Below, piece by piece: positions 5,990 to 34,049 of a stretch of 64,000 nt of DNA (its first letter is position 1; each line of letters starts with the position of its first letter). Source of the DNA: Pseudomonadota bacterium (GTDB lineage Bacteria; Pseudomonadota; Gammaproteobacteria; Acidiferrobacterales; Acidiferrobacteraceae); assembly GCA_021795715.1 (NCBI GenBank), contig JAJYPD010000008.1, positions 1 to 64,000 on the forward strand. Direction: 5' to 3'. The position numbers were made by a program, and so were the translations under genes. The notes under the pieces were generated by a model that was not told the DNA's origin, did not search any database, and was given only the letters and a program-made list of their open reading frames with translations.

Positions 5990-9898
<3,909 letters not shown>

Positions 9899-10945
9899 AG
9901 GCGGCGCGCCAAAGAGGGCCACGGCCAGCGCCGCGGGTGTGATCTGCAGCCGCTTGGCGGCGTCGTCAAGCGGCAAGGCGCCGGCCGCGAAGGGCTGGCC
10001 GATCCAATGGATCAGTCCCGGCGACGCATCGCCATCCGGATGCGAGGTGGCGTGCACCGCGATCACGATGTCATCGCGAATGGTGACCGATACGGCCACC
10101 GGTCCGTGCGGCGTGCCGATGATCCGCTGGCAGAGATACAGGCCTTCCTGGATCTTGAACAAAGTCCGTGGCGGCGATGTGTCGTCATCGTCGACGCTGG
10201 CCACGAGTGTGCCGGCAACCGCGTGCGCTGCGTCGAGGAGGTGTTCTGGCAGCACGGTGGTCTCCAGTCCGCCCACGAGGGGCGCGAAGGCCTCGATGAG
10301 GTATTGCTTGACGGTGTCGGCAGACGGTCTCCGCCCGGTTTCGCGCAGGACCGATGTCATGCCGGACGACAGCGTGGCCCTCAGCGTTTCCTTCAGGCGC
10401 TGGTCGGGGAGCCGGACGATGTGGTGCATGAGATCGCAGTCGAAATCGAGCAGGATGCTGCCCACGAAACAGAAGTGCCCATTGATGTCGCCTGCGCCCT
10501 GGCCTGTGATCTTGCGTCCGGCTGCGGTGACGATATCGTTGATCGGGCGCAGCCTGGTGCGGATGCCGAGCCTGCTGTAGACGCAGACCGGTGCCTGGGA
10601 CAGGTGGCGGTACGCGTCCTGCACGATGTTGGGAATGGGTGCGTGCGGCCTTTTGACGACCAGGGTGTAAAAGATCTGGCCCGGTCCGAGCAACACCATG
10701 CCGCCCCCCGTTTCCCGACGCATGACCGGGATGTCGTGGGCGCGGCAGTACTCGCGGTCAACGGCGTCCCCGGAGTCGAAATAACCAAGGCTTACGAAGG
10801 GCCGCGATGGCTCGATGAGGACAAGCGCCTCCTCGCCAAGGCGGGCGAGCGCATGGAAATAGCTGATCGGCAACAAGCCGCCATTGTCGTCTGGCAAGAA
10901 GAGTCGCACGGTATGGCCTGCGGGGCGCAAAAAGGCAACCGGCGC

Positions 10946-10978: not shown

Positions 10979-11665
10979 ATGCACGAGGACCTGCTAGTCA
11001 TCCGCAAGGCCGCGTTGTTCGCCAATCTTCTTCCCGAGGACCTGCGGCAGCTTCTCAAAAACGCCCATGTCCGCCGCTTCAAGGCCCACGAGCAGATCTT
11101 TGCGGCCGGGGCGCAGGCCACCGCATTCTATTTCCTGATCTCCGGCAGTGTGCGCCTGTTCCGTTTGTCTCCGCAGGGAGACGAGAAGGTGATCGAGCTC
11201 GTCATGCCGGATGCGACCTTCGGCGAAGGCGTCGTGTTCCTTGGCGGGCGGTATCCCGTGCATGCGGCCGCCGTCACCGACAGCGAGGTCGTCGAACTCG
11301 CCACGCATCACTTCAGCAGCGTGCTGGCCAGCAACCACGACATGGCGCTGCGGATGCTGGCGGGCTTGAGCACACGCCTGCACCAGTTGATCCAGGATGT
11401 CGCGTCGCTTACGTTGGAGACGGCCGGCCAACGGGTGGCCGGTTATCTGCTCTCCCAGTGCTCACCGGCAAGCGGAGATGCCGCCATTCACATGGTGATT
11501 CCGAAGAACGTCGTCGCTTCGCGCATCGGGGTCAAGGCGGAGACCTTTTCCCGGGTGCTTGCGACATTGCGCAATCTGGATCTGATTCGCGTGACCGGCA
11601 ACGACATCCATGTGCTGGATCGCGACGCACTCATGCATTGGCGGGATGATGTCGGCCGGACGTGA
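10979..11665 (+). CDS. Crp/Fnr family transcription regulator, Dnr-like
   Basis: The protein has 228 residues: an N-terminal cyclic-nucleotide-binding-fold sensor (about 10-125), a dimerisation helix, and a C-terminal winged helix. The recognition helix reads VKAETFSRVLATL. The E-x2-SR pattern is the one FNR uses to read TTGA half-sites. There is no N-terminal Cys cluster, so it is not an Fe-S FNR. By family resemblance it is closer to Dnr/NnrR-type regulators, which sense NO through haem, but the ligand cannot be read from sequence. It starts with ATG behind CGAGGT. A perfect TTGACC-N2-GGTCAA palindrome lies 2 bp after its stop, in front of lbpA, and a second lies between the hemerythrin and thioredoxin-like genes, so these are its likely targets. 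Confidence 0.88.
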   Translation: MHEDLLVIRKAALFANLLPEDLRQLLKNAHVRRFKAHEQIFAAGAQATAFYFLISGSVRLFRLSPQGDEKVIELVMPDATFGEGVVFLGGRYPVHAAAVTDSEVVELATHHFSSVLASNHDMALRMLAGLSTRLHQLIQDVASLTLETAGQRVAGYLLSQCSPASGDAAIHMVIPKNVVASRIGVKAETFSRVLATLRNLDLIRVTGNDIHVLDRDALMHWRDDVGRT

Positions 11666-11667
11666 TC

Positions 11668-11681
11668 TTGACCCGGGTCAA
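11668..11681. promoter_or_regulatory. Crp/Fnr-type operator upstream of lbpA
   Basis: The site is TTGACCCGGGTCAA, a perfect 14-bp palindrome centred at 11674.5. An activator bound at -41.5 would put the start of transcription near 11716, just before the lbpA ATG at 11735. A weak -10 (CATGCT/TTAAAC, 11705-11715) is at the right place. The same TTGACC-N2-GGTCAA core recurs at 13222-13235. Confidence 0.65.
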
Positions 11682-11734
11682 GGCATGGCCGCCACCCAAA
11701 GTCCCATGCTTAAACGGCCTGCGAGGAGCGAGTC

Positions 11735-12184
11735 ATGACAGAGTACCGTGGCTGTGAATTACCGGACGATCTTTTCTATGATCTCGACTATGTGTGGGCA
11801 AGGCCGGAAGAAAACGGCATAGTCACCCTGGGGATCACCGACGCCGCCCAGACCATGGCGGGGCGTGTGCAGAAGATCCGGATCAAGAAGGTGGGGTTTC
11901 ATCTGGCGGCGGGACGGCACGTCGCCACGCTGGAGAGCGGCAAGTGGGCGGGCGGGGTCCCCTGTCCGTTCACCGGCACCGTGGAAGAGATCAACGAACA
12001 GGTCCTCGCGACGCCGCATCTGGTGAATATCAGTCCTTACGGGGACGCCTGGCTGGCAAAGGTGCGGCCGGACAATCCCCAGGGCGCGCTGAGCGGTCTG
12101 GCCACCGGCGAAAGGGCCATGGCCGCGTTGCGGCAGTGGCTGGACCGCTACGACGTGCAGTGTATGCGCTGCGCGGAACCATAA
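11735..12184 (+). CDS. lbpA: GcvH-like lipoate-binding protein, LbpA type
   Basis: A 149-residue single lipoyl-domain protein of the GcvH fold. The lipoyl-attachment Lys is about residue 70 in TLESGKWAGG; ordinary GcvH has ESVKA there, whereas ESGKW is the LbpA pattern. The N-terminal GCELPDDLFYD and DYVWAR are also LbpA-like rather than GcvH-like. LbpA proteins work with the sulfur-oxidising heterodisulfide-reductase-like (sHdr) complex and carry sulfur intermediates on lipoate in the cytoplasm. No hdr genes and no gcvT or gcvP are in the window, so this copy is separate from such a cluster here. It carries Cys7, Cys77 and a C-terminal CMRC. A lipoate ligase gene lies nearby. A hemerythrin gene follows 11 bp downstream, probably in the same operon, under the palindromic operator at 11668. 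Confidence 0.83.
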   Translation: MTEYRGCELPDDLFYDLDYVWARPEENGIVTLGITDAAQTMAGRVQKIRIKKVGFHLAAGRHVATLESGKWAGGVPCPFTGTVEEINEQVLATPHLVNISPYGDAWLAKVRPDNPQGALSGLATGERAMAALRQWLDRYDVQCMRCAEP

Positions 12185-12195
12185 GGACTGCCACC

Positions 12196-12747
12196 ATGAT
12201 CCGGATCGAGGAAAGCAATGCGGCCTACGCACCGGGGTTTGATGATCCCATCGGTCTGCTTGAGGCGTGCCACGCCCGGATCAGCGGGCACTGCGTGACG
12301 CTCGAACGGCTCCGGGATCATCTCCGGCAGTCCGGAGCGGACGCGGCGGCCCGGACGGCCGCCGAACGCATCCTGCATTATTTCGATACGGCCGGCGCCT
12401 GGCACCATCAGGACGAGGAACAGGATCTGCAGCCGCTGCTCGAACCGCTGCTTAGAGAGCGGGGCGATGAGGCGACCCTGGGGCGCTTGAGGGCGCTGAT
12501 GGCAGAACACGGCACGCTCAGCGCGGCCTATCGGCCCTTGCGCGCCGCACTGGCTGCGATCGTGGCGGGATCTTATGCAGGCGAACTCCCCATAGAGCCC
12601 TACGTTTCCGTGATGCGCCGGCATTTCACGGAAGAAAACGAGCTGCTGTTCCCGCGCTCGCGTGCGCTTTTCGATGACAAGGCGCTGCGGACCTTGGGAA
12701 CCGCCATGGCCAGGCGCCGCGGCGTTCAGTTCGGCGGTTCGAGCTGA
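12196..12747 (+). CDS. Hemerythrin-domain protein
   Basis: The protein has 183 residues and is mostly helical. Histidines and carboxylates are spaced as in HHE hemerythrin domains: the His in EACHARISGHC (near residue 25-35), WHHQDEE (about 73-79), AEHGT, and RRHFTEENELLFPR near the C-terminus. This should bind a di-iron centre that interacts with O2 or NO. It starts with ATG after AAGGA, 11 bp behind lbpA, so both should be on one transcript and under the palindrome at 11668. Its 3' end overlaps by 22 bp the convergent gene for a second hemerythrin. The role is probably in oxygen or nitric-oxide handling; this is inference. Confidence 0.85.
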   Translation: MIRIEESNAAYAPGFDDPIGLLEACHARISGHCVTLERLRDHLRQSGADAAARTAAERILHYFDTAGAWHHQDEEQDLQPLLEPLLRERGDEATLGRLRALMAEHGTLSAAYRPLRAALAAIVAGSYAGELPIEPYVSVMRRHFTEENELLFPRSRALFDDKALRTLGTAMARRRGVQFGGSS

Positions 12748-13163
12748 CGCGCCGCCTTGTCGGCGGCCGCCTGCGGCAGAAGGCGGTCCACCGCGGGATA
12801 GAGTTCCTCCTCTTCCTTGGCATCGTGGTGCAGGAGGATCTGGCCGGTTGTGCCGATGAGCGCCGCCGCCTCGTCCCCGTCGGCGGTTTCTACCGCCTCG
12901 CCGATTTCGTCGAAAAAGCTGCGCAGATCTTTGTGGCCCTTGCGCAGGATGCTGGTCAGGGGATTGTCCGCGCCGTGCACCTCTTCGTAGGCCGGGAACA
13001 GGATCTGTTCCTCGGTGCGCATGTGCCGCTCTATGGCGGCGCGAAAGGCGCCAAATGCCGCGCCCGCGCCCGGCCAGTCGGCCGCGGCGACACGCGTTTG
13101 TGTGTCATCCCACAGCTGATCGAGAAGGCGATGGTGCGCGGCGAACTGGGTTGCGAGGCTCAT
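12726..13163 (-). CDS. Hemerythrin-domain protein (second copy)
   Basis: The protein has 145 residues from the ATG at 13163, which has an AGGAGT site upstream; the frame extends further but without a sensible start. HHE motifs: FAAHHRLLDQLWD near the N-terminus, ERHMRTEEQILFPAYEE, KGHKDLRSFFDE, and LLHHDAKEEEELYPAVD. It is only distantly like the hemerythrin at 12196. The upstream spacer carries the palindrome at 13222-13235. On this strand TACACT (13193-13198) is a possible -10 that puts the palindrome close to -42, the position expected for an FNR-type activator. Confidence 0.87.
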   Translation of the reverse strand: MSLATQFAAHHRLLDQLWDDTQTRVAAADWPGAGAAFGAFRAAIERHMRTEEQILFPAYEEVHGADNPLTSILRKGHKDLRSFFDEIGEAVETADGDEAAALIGTTGQILLHHDAKEEEELYPAVDRLLPQAAADKAARQLEPPN

Positions 13164-13221
13164 GTCAGGAGACTCCTGCGGTGATGAGAACCAGTGTAGA
13201 CGGCTCACGCGCGCAGCCCCC

Positions 13222-13235
13222 TTGACCGCGGTCAA
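13222..13235. promoter_or_regulatory. Crp/Fnr-type operator between divergent hemerythrin and thioredoxin-like genes
   Basis: The site is TTGACCGCGGTCAA, a perfect palindrome sharing the TTGACC-N2-GGTCAA core with the site at 11668. Its centre is 65 bp from the minus-strand hemerythrin start and 68 bp from the plus-strand start at 13297, so it could serve both directions. Confidence 0.65.
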
Positions 13236-13296
13236 GGAGCGCGAAGGGCCGGGGGACTAGCGTGCAATGAGGTCGGTTTTTGTGGAGGTTCGTGCG

Positions 13297-13545
13297 ATGG
13301 AAGTGCGTCTACTGGTGTCTCAGTGGTGCCCGGTCTGCCCCCAGGCGGAAGCCGTCTGGGCGGAAGTCGCCAAGCGGCATCCGATCGATTATCGCGTCCT
13401 CGACATCGCCAAGCCCGAGGGCCGTACGCTCGTGGCGGGTCTGCGCATCCGTACGGTGCCGGCTGTCGTGATCGACGGCGGGCTGAAGGCAGTCGGCGTG
13501 CAATCGATGCACGATGCGCTCGCGCTGCTCGGCCTTGCGGCCTGA
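13297..13545 (+). CDS. Small thioredoxin-fold protein with CPVC motif
   Basis: The protein has 82 residues. The thioredoxin/glutaredoxin-like fold has the redox motif WCPVC (Cys about residues 11 and 14) and the cis-Pro in RTVPAVVIDG. There is no signal peptide, so it is cytoplasmic. The start is set by GGAGG 8 nt before the ATG at 13297. Similar small proteins are annotated as thioredoxin family or glutaredoxin-like. It diverges from the hemerythrin gene and shares the FNR-type palindrome, suggesting a role in the same redox or nitrosative response. Confidence 0.85.
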   Translation: MEVRLLVSQWCPVCPQAEAVWAEVAKRHPIDYRVLDIAKPEGRTLVAGLRIRTVPAVVIDGGLKAVGVQSMHDALALLGLAA

Positions 13546-31982: not shown

Positions 31983-34049
31983 ATGCTGGTACATCTGCAA
32001 GGCCCCTGGAGCCCGTTATGGGGGAGACTGTCTTTGTCCGAAGTCCCCTACCACAACATGATCGTCGTCGGCGCGTTTGCATTCGCCATCGTGCTGGGGG
32101 CGGCCATTGTCGGCGCAGTCACCTATGCCGGGAAATGGGGCTATCTGTGGCGTGAATGGCTGACGACCGTCGACCACAAAAAGATCGGCGTCATGTACAT
32201 CCTGCTCGGTCTTGTCATGCTGTTTCGCGGGTTCGTCGATGCGCTCATGATGCGCACGCAGCAGATGATGGCGGCGGGGCCGCATGCGGCCGGGTTTCTC
32301 GGGGCCCTCCATGGGTATTTGCCGCCTTCCCATTTCGATCAGATCTACAGTGCGCATGGCACCATCATGATCATCCTGGCCGTGACCCCGATCCTGGTCG
32401 GCCTGATGAACATCGTTGTTCCGCTGCAGGTCGGCGCGCGCGACATGGCGTACCCCTATCTGAACGCCGTCGGTCTGTGGCTCACGGCCATGGCGGCGGC
32501 GCTCGTGATGCTGTCTTTGTTCCTTGGCGATTTCTCGCACGCAGGCTGGGTCGGCCTGGCGCCTCTTACCGAGCTTCCATACAGCCCCAACGTGGGCGTC
32601 GATTACTGGATGTGGGCCATCCAGATCAGCAGCGTCGGCACCACTCTCGGTTCGATCAACCTGATTGCCACCATCGTGAAGATGCGGGCGCCCGGCATGA
32701 CCTGGGGCCGCCTCCCCATCTTCACGTGGACATCGCTTAGCACGAACATCATCGCGCTCAGTTCGTTCCCGGTGCTTGCCGTCGCCCTGTTTTTGCTGAG
32801 TTTCGATCGTTATCTGGGTACGCACTTCTTCACGCCCGGCCTTGGTGGCGACCTCATGCTCTACACCAACCTGTTCTGGATATGGGGCCACCCGGAGGTG
32901 TATTTCGTGGTTCTTCCGGCATTTGGCATCATTTCCGAGATTGTGCCCACGTTCAGCGAAAAGCCGCTGTTTGGCTACATCACGATGGTCATCGCTTCGA
33001 TGGCGATCGCCGGCGTGTCGTGGTCGGTCTGGCTTCATCACTTCTTCACGATGGGCGAGGGTCCGGCGGTCAGCCTGTACTTCAGTGTCGCCACCATGCT
33101 TGTGGGTATTCCGACCGGCGTGAAAGTGTTCAACTGGGCGTTCACCATGTACCGGGCGCGCATCCGCTACGATGTGCCGATGCTGTGGGCGATCGGCGCG
33201 CTGGCTTTGCTTTTGACCGGCGGTCTTACCGGCATGATGCTGGCGATTCCGGCGATCAACTATACGGTCCATAACAGCGTGTTCGTGGTCGCCCACTTCC
33301 ACAACATGTTCCTGCTGATCGCATTTGCGGCCATGGGCGGTATCAACTACTGGTGGCCCAAGGTGTTCGGCTACAAGCTCGACGAGAAGACCGGCCGGCT
33401 GGTGTTCTGGTACTGGGTGGCCGGGACGATCGTGGTCTTTGTGCCCATGTACACGCTGGGTTTCATGGGCATGACGCGGCGCTTGGACTACGTGGCCCAC
33501 CCCTCCTGGCTGCCGTTGCTGCAGCTCGAGGAGGCGGGCATCGCGCTTTACTGCCTTGCGCTCTACTACCAGCTCAAGCAGATCTACGTCAGCATCCGCG
33601 ACCGGGCGGCGAACCGGGTCGGCGCCGACGCCTGGGGTACGTCGCGCAGTCTCGAATGGATGACGCTCTCGCCGGTGCCGTTCTACAACTTTGCGGTCAC
33701 GCCCGTCGTGCACGCGCGGGACGAGTGGGCCTGGCGGCGCGAGCATGGCTACACGAACCTGCGCCCTTCGCGTTATGTGGACATCCACATGCCGCGGAAT
33801 ACGGCTGTGCCGCTTGTGATCGGCGCACTGTCTTTTGCGCTGGGGTTTGGCTTGATCTGGCGGATCTGGTGGCTTACCGCGTTGAGCCTCGTTGGCATCG
33901 TCGTGGCGATGATCATCCGCGCCGGCGACACCGACACCGGCTACGTCATTGCGGCGGCCGACGTCGAGCGCATGGAAAAGCAGGCGGACTTGCGGGCGCA
34001 AACGGTCCCAGGGGGCCGTACGGGGCAGCCGATCCGCGCAGTCCCCTGA
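31983..34049 (+). CDS. cyoB: Cytochrome bo3 ubiquinol oxidase subunit I
   Basis: The protein has 688 residues with about 15 membrane helices. Haem-copper residues: WGHPEVYFVVLP (CuB His and the cross-linked Tyr), the adjacent CuB His pair region, and FVVAHFHNMFL (haem His ligands). The quinol-site pattern RGFVDALMMRTQQ and FDQIYSAHG matches Arg71, Asp75 and His98 of E. coli CyoB, which supports ubiquinol as donor. It starts with ATG after AAGGAGAT, 11 bp behind cyoA. A large hairpin follows before cyoC. Confidence 0.97.
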   Translation: MLVHLQGPWSPLWGRLSLSEVPYHNMIVVGAFAFAIVLGAAIVGAVTYAGKWGYLWREWLTTVDHKKIGVMYILLGLVMLFRGFVDALMMRTQQMMAAGPHAAGFLGALHGYLPPSHFDQIYSAHGTIMIILAVTPILVGLMNIVVPLQVGARDMAYPYLNAVGLWLTAMAAALVMLSLFLGDFSHAGWVGLAPLTELPYSPNVGVDYWMWAIQISSVGTTLGSINLIATIVKMRAPGMTWGRLPIFTWTSLSTNIIALSSFPVLAVALFLLSFDRYLGTHFFTPGLGGDLMLYTNLFWIWGHPEVYFVVLPAFGIISEIVPTFSEKPLFGYITMVIASMAIAGVSWSVWLHHFFTMGEGPAVSLYFSVATMLVGIPTGVKVFNWAFTMYRARIRYDVPMLWAIGALALLLTGGLTGMMLAIPAINYTVHNSVFVVAHFHNMFLLIAFAAMGGINYWWPKVFGYKLDEKTGRLVFWYWVAGTIVVFVPMYTLGFMGMTRRLDYVAHPSWLPLLQLEEAGIALYCLALYYQLKQIYVSIRDRAANRVGADAWGTSRSLEWMTLSPVPFYNFAVTPVVHARDEWAWRREHGYTNLRPSRYVDIHMPRNTAVPLVIGALSFALGFGLIWRIWWLTALSLVGIVVAMIIRAGDTDTGYVIAAADVERMEKQADLRAQTVPGGRTGQPIRAVP

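Follow-up and report, generated by a model that had tools for sequence, protein, structure and literature searches.

Gene Organization at the Locus

The window considered here is a 64,000 nucleotide stretch of DNA (contig JAJYPD010000008.1) from a member of the Acidiferrobacteraceae, in which a regulator gene of the CRP/FNR family heads a cassette encoding a lipoate-binding protein, two hemerythrins and a small thioredoxin, with two matching palindromes between the genes. Judging from the sequence, it is highly probable that this regulator is a DNR-type activator, likely responding to nitric oxide (NO), which drives four loci of its genome through CTTGAY-N4-RTCAAG operators at about -42. The source assembly is a metagenome-assembled genome (MAG) of 2,098,506 bases (2.10 Mb) with a completeness of about 95%, which makes absences provisional. 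The family comprises Acidiferrobacter and a sister genus, that of the window, which is known from MAGs and of which three genomes were compared.

The regulator gene (10979-11665, plus strand) encodes a protein of 228 amino acids with Pfam cNMP_binding and HTH_Crp_2 domains. Two base pairs separate its stop codon from the first palindrome, PAL1, an exact 14-mer (TTGACCCGGGTCAA, 11668-11681) contained in the 16-mer operator CTTGACCCGGGTCAAG (11667-11682). The lbpA promoter has its predicted -10 element, CATGCT (11705-11710, plus strand), 23 bp after PAL1; most relatives have TAGACT or TACACT there. Next come the gene for the LbpA-type lipoate-binding protein, of the GCV_H fold (11735-12184, plus strand; Pfam GCV_H, 114 bits), and, directly after it, that for hemerythrin (HHE) domain protein 1 (12196-12747, plus strand; Pfam Hemerythrin). 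Hemerythrin (HHE) domain protein 2 is encoded on the minus strand (12726-13163; Pfam Hemerythrin, 61 bits), and both hemerythrin genes are syntenic. The second exact palindrome, PAL2 (14-mer TTGACCGCGGTCAA, 13222-13235; 16-mer CTTGACCGCGGTCAAG, 13221-13236), is common to hemerythrin 2 (ATG 13163) and a divergent gene (ATG 13297) for a small thioredoxin-like protein with a CPVC motif (13297-13545, plus strand; Pfam Thioredoxin_3). The longest reading frame called for hemerythrin 2 (TTG 13235) would overlap PAL2; relatives align from ATG 13163, just as those of the thioredoxin align from its start, MEVRLLV. Predicted -10 elements are found on either side of PAL2, with TACACT for hemerythrin 2 (13193-13198, minus strand, 23 bp from PAL2) and, for the thioredoxin gene, a region (13258-13264, plus strand) whose best hexamer is TAGCGT at 22 bp, most relatives having TAGAGT at 23 bp.

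Divergent from the regulator lies a lipoate-protein ligase-like gene with an LplA/B catalytic domain (9821-10909, minus strand; Pfam LplA-B_cat, 109 bits), which is syntenic in every one of the 17 family genomes carrying the cassette. Its reading frame is open to 10984, and a GTG near 10909 is the likely start because most alignments with relatives begin at about residue 20-26. In the gap between ligase gene and regulator no operator was found.

Operators and Promoter Architecture

Genome-wide site counts were obtained by pattern searches of the assembly, with the reversed pattern as a control. The exact pattern TTGACC-N2-GGTCAA occurs twice in the whole assembly, as PAL1 and PAL2, and its reversed control does not occur. 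A first-pass annotation of the window had described two perfect 14-bp palindromes at these positions and proposed a genome scan for them; the description is accurate, and both copies returned by the scan are intergenic, with neither in a coding region. In the window, 8 matches with at most two mismatches were found against 1.8 expected, a count reached by none of 100 shuffles. The own-genome list at the same threshold consisted mostly of weak matches and was not used.

When promoters were aligned, the best -10 hexamer peaked at exactly 23 bp past the palindrome in five sets, namely those of lbpA (17 promoters), thioredoxin (16), hemerythrin 2 (16), hcp (3) and NO reductase (8). The window's own thioredoxin promoter, with its 22 bp, departs from this value, and for hemerythrin 2 in Acidiferrobacter the picture is less clear, with other offsets scoring almost as high. 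A peak at 23 bp places the palindrome center at about -41.5/-42.5, in keeping with the position of about -41 proposed earlier for the operators. Class II sites of FNR-type activators are centered at about -41.5/-42.5, and such a placement makes activation the likely mode of the regulator.

The operator as originally proposed, TTGACC-N2-GGTCAA, holds exactly for both sites of the window, but the class is a broader one, the same two sites in Acidiferrobacter reading, for example, TTGATGGCCGTCAA. CTTGAY-N4-RTCAAG is taken here as the working operator. The exact pattern was too narrow as a search motif, and TTGAY-N4-RTCAA was too broad, taking in FNR-type sites as well as matches beside transposase-like open reading frames (ORFs; L214, L215). 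The 16-mer with its flanking C..G gave the best separation of site classes: the base flanking TTGA on its outer side is C in 93% of the half-sites of this regulon versus 31% of those in FNR-type regions, in a flank comparison for which position decided the choice of cassette sites and searches for the genes supplied those of hcp and nor.

Copies of CTTGAYN4RTCAAG number 5, 5 and 4 in the three genomes of the genus (reversed control 0), and four loci are common to all three: PAL1 (lbpA-hemerythrin), PAL2 (hemerythrin/thioredoxin), hcp and a DsrC-family gene. The small two-site regulon put forward initially thus retains both of its sites and grows to at least four in this genome, with hcp and the DsrC-family gene added. 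The operator precedes hcp in three of three genus genomes (NCBIfam hydroxylamine reductase, 702-721 bits). The 16-mer precedes the DsrC-family gene (PF04358, 104 bits) in the same three, with TACAGT or TAGAGT 23 bp past the site, and also in the five Acidiferrobacter genomes examined for it, where the -10 hexamers are weaker. No hcp was detectable in Acidiferrobacter genomes; eight of them have a quinol NO reductase gene (PDB 3ayf, E 8e-149; NorB cytochrome-c-like domain), with the operator upstream in 8/8. A DUF2249 gene is a candidate further target in Acidiferrobacter.

Several other repeats were set aside. Two 16-mers, at C61:9063 of the own genome and C72:7536 of genome G001, have no good -10 hexamer at 23 bp and were not counted as targets. 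Genome G007, an Acidiferrobacter, contains TTGATTGGCGTCAA in three identical occurrences (L214:4062 and 4180; L215:4171), within or close to copies of one transposase-like ORF; these are probably insertion-sequence copies and not operators. A repeat at the tusA-dsrE junction of the sulfur-oxidation (sHdr) operon was rejected as a further operator, given that its arms change together and that it abuts a ribosome-binding site. It reads TTGAC-N4-GTCAA with the variants TTGGC..GCCAA and TCG..CGA, both arms changing in pairs, and in almost every genome of the family it immediately precedes the ribosome-binding site of dsrE (L240-L257; in the own genome L186:2652-2675). It is likely to be a conserved intercistronic RNA hairpin. 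Elsewhere in the window, one of the genome's two genes for terminal oxidase subunit I occupies positions 32181-33527 (COX1, 442 bits).

Conservation Within and Beyond the Family

Orthologues of the regulator occur in 16 further family genomes with 60-87% identity, and in all 16 the cassette is syntenic and adjoins purL. PAL1 is kept at the same place in 17/17 genomes and PAL2 in 16/17, the remaining copy having decayed (TTGTGTGCGGTCAA, with one arm reading TTGTG); save for this site the TTGA/TCAA core is constant across the family, and the flanks vary. One family member (L075) has the lbpA, hemerythrin and thioredoxin genes without an adjacent regulator, and there both palindromes are missing.

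Outside the family, TTGAY-N4-RTCAA is found within 250 bp upstream of the regulator homologue in 44 of 66 cases (named genomes), at 47 times the density seen elsewhere in the same loci and with no reversed-control matches. Many of these sites are common to the regulator gene and a thioredoxin gene of the same type that diverges from it, and one outside family has such a site upstream of a related lbpA as well. Homologues outside the family adjoin hcp in 7/66 loci and a weak NorB-like match in 5/66; those of Ectothiorhodospira have no site nearby. In another family of the order, a 131 amino acid membrane protein is encoded between operator and lbpA (L069:9220-9615), its COX1-like match being weak and below the cut-off. 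A flavoprotein of about 1,180 amino acids adjoins the DNR-like regulator in 13 of the 66 outside loci (L069:11958-15497 and relatives); its domains are Pyr_redox_2 and a match to NCBIfam PRK06567 of 637 bits, which is below the cut-off of that model.

Identity of the Regulator

The recognition helix of the protein reads E188-T-F-S191-R192, and of these residues E188, S191 and R192 do not vary in any of 30 homologues, which bears out the E-x2-SR helix that the earlier annotation predicted to read TTGA. The Dnr-like assignment made there also holds: the best PDB match is Pseudomonas aeruginosa DNR (3dkw, E 2.3e-36), with the HcpR entry 9day far weaker (E 1e-6), and the operator fits both published motifs, CTTGATnnnnATCAAG for DNR and TTGACnnnnGTCAA for HcpR (Rodionov et al., 2005; PMC1274295). 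A phylogenetic tree places the family regulators with DNR-like Thiobacillus proteins (support 83, by SH-aLRT only), far from the FNR-type proteins of the same genome; in this tree, which took in no HcpR1 sequence, P. aeruginosa DNR (3dkw) has a long branch and its exact position is unsure.

By its cNMP-binding-like sensor domain, its Crp-type helix-turn-helix and its proximity to DNR, the regulator is an ordinary DNR-type protein. It combines a CTTGAT-N4-ATCAAG-like operator with the E..SR helix, and the placing of the operator at hcp (3/3) and NO reductase (8/8) points, as far as sequence can tell, to control of NO-metabolizing genes. The N-terminal cysteine cluster of 4Fe-4S oxygen sensors such as FNR and ANR is absent from the window regulator, and redox sensing through a conserved cysteine was discarded, no cysteine being invariant among the 30 homologues. 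Among the DNR histidines checked by alignment, His139 alone is kept, as His135. Heme-binding histidines are not universal to the DNR family.

Lipoyl and DsrC-Like Carriers

The LbpA criteria are a lipoyl lysine together with N-terminal and C-terminal cysteines (Cao et al., 2018; PMC6067878). The cassette protein, aligned with two sHdr LbpAs and GcvH of the same genome, has the lipoyl lysine Lys70, an N-terminal Cys7 and a C-terminal CMRC (CxxC) sequence, so that the lipoate-linked carrier first predicted at this locus is indeed LbpA-like by its residues. Its gene lies outside the sHdr cluster, which is found with two other LbpAs on contig C37. Because these residues are present, and identity is only 39-45% to the two sHdr-cluster LbpAs as against 66-90% to counterparts in related cassettes, the protein is assigned by sequence to a third, CxxC-tailed type of LbpA.

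The DsrC-like protein keeps the cysteine of KQACK, has none near the C-terminus and ends in RRPRxWST (L033:1627-1965; L277:1918-2253; L278:2006-2398). A typical DsrC has a second cysteine near the C-terminus. In each of the genomes examined, the operator stands upstream of the gene for this one-cysteine form.

Proposed Mechanism and Alternative Explanations

In the model proposed here, a signal, most likely NO or a related reactive nitrogen species, would cause a dimer of the regulator to bind CTTGAY-N4-RTCAAG and, centered some 42 bp upstream of the transcription start, to activate transcription in the class II manner. That the protein binds these sites, that it activates and does not repress, and that NO is its ligand is what we infer from the arrangement. 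The targets in the own genome would be lbpA-hemerythrin 1, the divergent hemerythrin 2 and thioredoxin genes, hcp and the DsrC-family gene; in Acidiferrobacter the quinol NO reductase would take the role of hcp, and the DUF2249 gene would join the regulon. NO is regarded as the likely signal since Hcp and NO reductase are alternative targets in the sister genera. These known targets would remove NO or its products, and the lipoyl carrier with its CxxC, the thioredoxin, the DsrC-like protein and the hemerythrins would probably form a thiol and di-iron branch of the same response, for example by reducing or buffering nitrosated thiols or by protecting the sulfur-oxidation machinery. A more specific version is tentative and has the balance of probability against it: an undescribed NO-defense branch in which the third-type LbpA, bearing lipoate as well as its CxxC tail, would constitute with its dedicated ligase, the thioredoxin, the one-cysteine DsrC-like protein and the hemerythrins a dithiol relay for the detoxification of nitrosated thiols or of NO, or for the shielding of the sHdr system.

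The genome also contains TTGAY-N4-RTCAA sites upstream of ubiD, hemN, a nitronate monooxygenase-like gene, nrdD and nrdG (contigs C15, C9 and C60, corresponding to L183-L185), together with two FNR-type regulators that have N-terminal cysteine clusters, one of them beside a further hemerythrin gene. Together they apparently represent an FNR/ANR regulon.

Certain observations weigh against an NO-responsive DNR regulon. The FNR-type regulators of the genome could bind the same core, the own-genome hcp site is a weaker operator match (CTTGATCCGAGTCAAG), and the joint loss of regulator and operators is seen in one genome only (L075). His14, His15, His167 and His187 of P. aeruginosa DNR, the last of which we take to be a heme ligand, have no conserved counterparts in the window regulator. 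No full-length narG and no NO reductase were found in the three genus genomes, a COX1-family search in them giving only terminal-oxidase-like matches, and any NO would therefore have to come from an external or chemical source. NO forms chemically from nitrite at low pH, which would explain the need in acidophilic relatives that lack the denitrification genes searched for.

The first of these points opens the way to reading the palindromes as FNR/ANR oxygen-response sites for one of the two cysteine-rich FNR proteins, with the DNR-like neighbor incidental; the shared core at hemN, ubiD, nrdD and nrdG and beside the two FNR-type genes agrees with this, as does the class II spacing, which FNR and DNR have in common. 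Such a reading is nevertheless quite improbable in our judgment, given the difference in the flanking C, the different target set (hcp, NO reductase, the lbpA cassette), the way in which site conservation travels with the DNR-like gene, sites being missing from the cassette that lacks it, and the sites upstream of the DNR-like gene itself outside the family. Of the NO or low-oxygen response originally suggested, the NO part is thus favored by the operators at hcp and NO reductase, and a pure low-oxygen (FNR) response is less likely, FNR-type sites being distinguishable. A related view accepts that the regulator controls these genes and supposes another signal, with redox state, sulfane sulfur and low oxygen among the possibilities. 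The missing DNR histidines and the failure to find narG and NO reductase in the genus speak for it, as does the fact that several targets are sulfur- or redox-carrier proteins; it is nonetheless considered unlikely, as the alternation of hcp and NO reductase in sister genera fits NO best and the nearest regulators elsewhere adjoin hcp or Mo-cofactor/nitrate-reductase genes. A reading of the palindromes as hairpins in RNA, or as inverted repeats arisen by chance, is scarcely credible and already largely refuted. The similar repeat between tusA and dsrE does behave as a hairpin, but at the PAL1, PAL2, hcp and nor sites the TTGA/TCAA core is without change, compensatory or otherwise, apart from the one decayed copy, and a -10 hexamer follows at a fixed distance, which places the sites upstream of the predicted transcripts.

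Relation to Known Systems and Biological Significance

DNR has been described in P. aeruginosa and denitrifying beta-proteobacteria (PMC1274295), and the window regulator resembles it in protein family, in E..SR residues, in the flanking C..G of its operator, in having NO reductase genes among its targets and in class II spacing. It differs in lacking histidines 14/15/167/187, in a genus where no full-length narG was found, in a regulon that includes LbpA, DsrC-like, thioredoxin and hemerythrin genes, and in an operator whose fifth base is more often C than T. HcpR, known from delta-proteobacteria and cyanobacteria with hemerythrin-like genes among its predicted targets (PMC1274295), shares the operator TTGACnnnnGTCAA, the hcp target and small regulons, whereas the window protein is nearer to DNR. 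The LbpAs of sHdr clusters (Cao et al., 2018; PMC6067878) likewise have a GcvH-like fold, a lipoyl lysine, terminal cysteines and a lipoate-ligase gene nearby; the window LbpA, in contrast, lies outside the sHdr cluster, ends in CMRC and belongs to a predicted NO regulon. The GcvH-L/LplA2/SirTM/macrodomain operon of Staphylococcus and Streptococcus (PMC4518038) also pairs a GcvH-like protein with its own ligase and has a link to stress, but this is an analogy only, since the window cassette has no sirtuin or macrodomain and has another regulator and other partners. When the literature was searched for an NO regulon in Acidiferrobacter, none of the papers listed contained the genus name.

The novelty lies in the regulon, where a CxxC-tailed LbpA and a one-cysteine DsrC-like protein would take part in a nitrosative-stress response. 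For sulfur oxidizers this would constitute a compact, testable regulon in which NO defense enzymes and lipoyl- and DsrC-type carriers come under one promoter grammar. It offers a lead to the roles of the extra LbpA and DsrC-like proteins that are encoded away from sulfur-oxidation clusters, and to the way in which organisms without the searched denitrification enzymes meet NO formed chemically from nitrite at low pH. If the dithiol relay were true, lipoate carriers would gain a role beyond carbon metabolism and sulfur oxidation.

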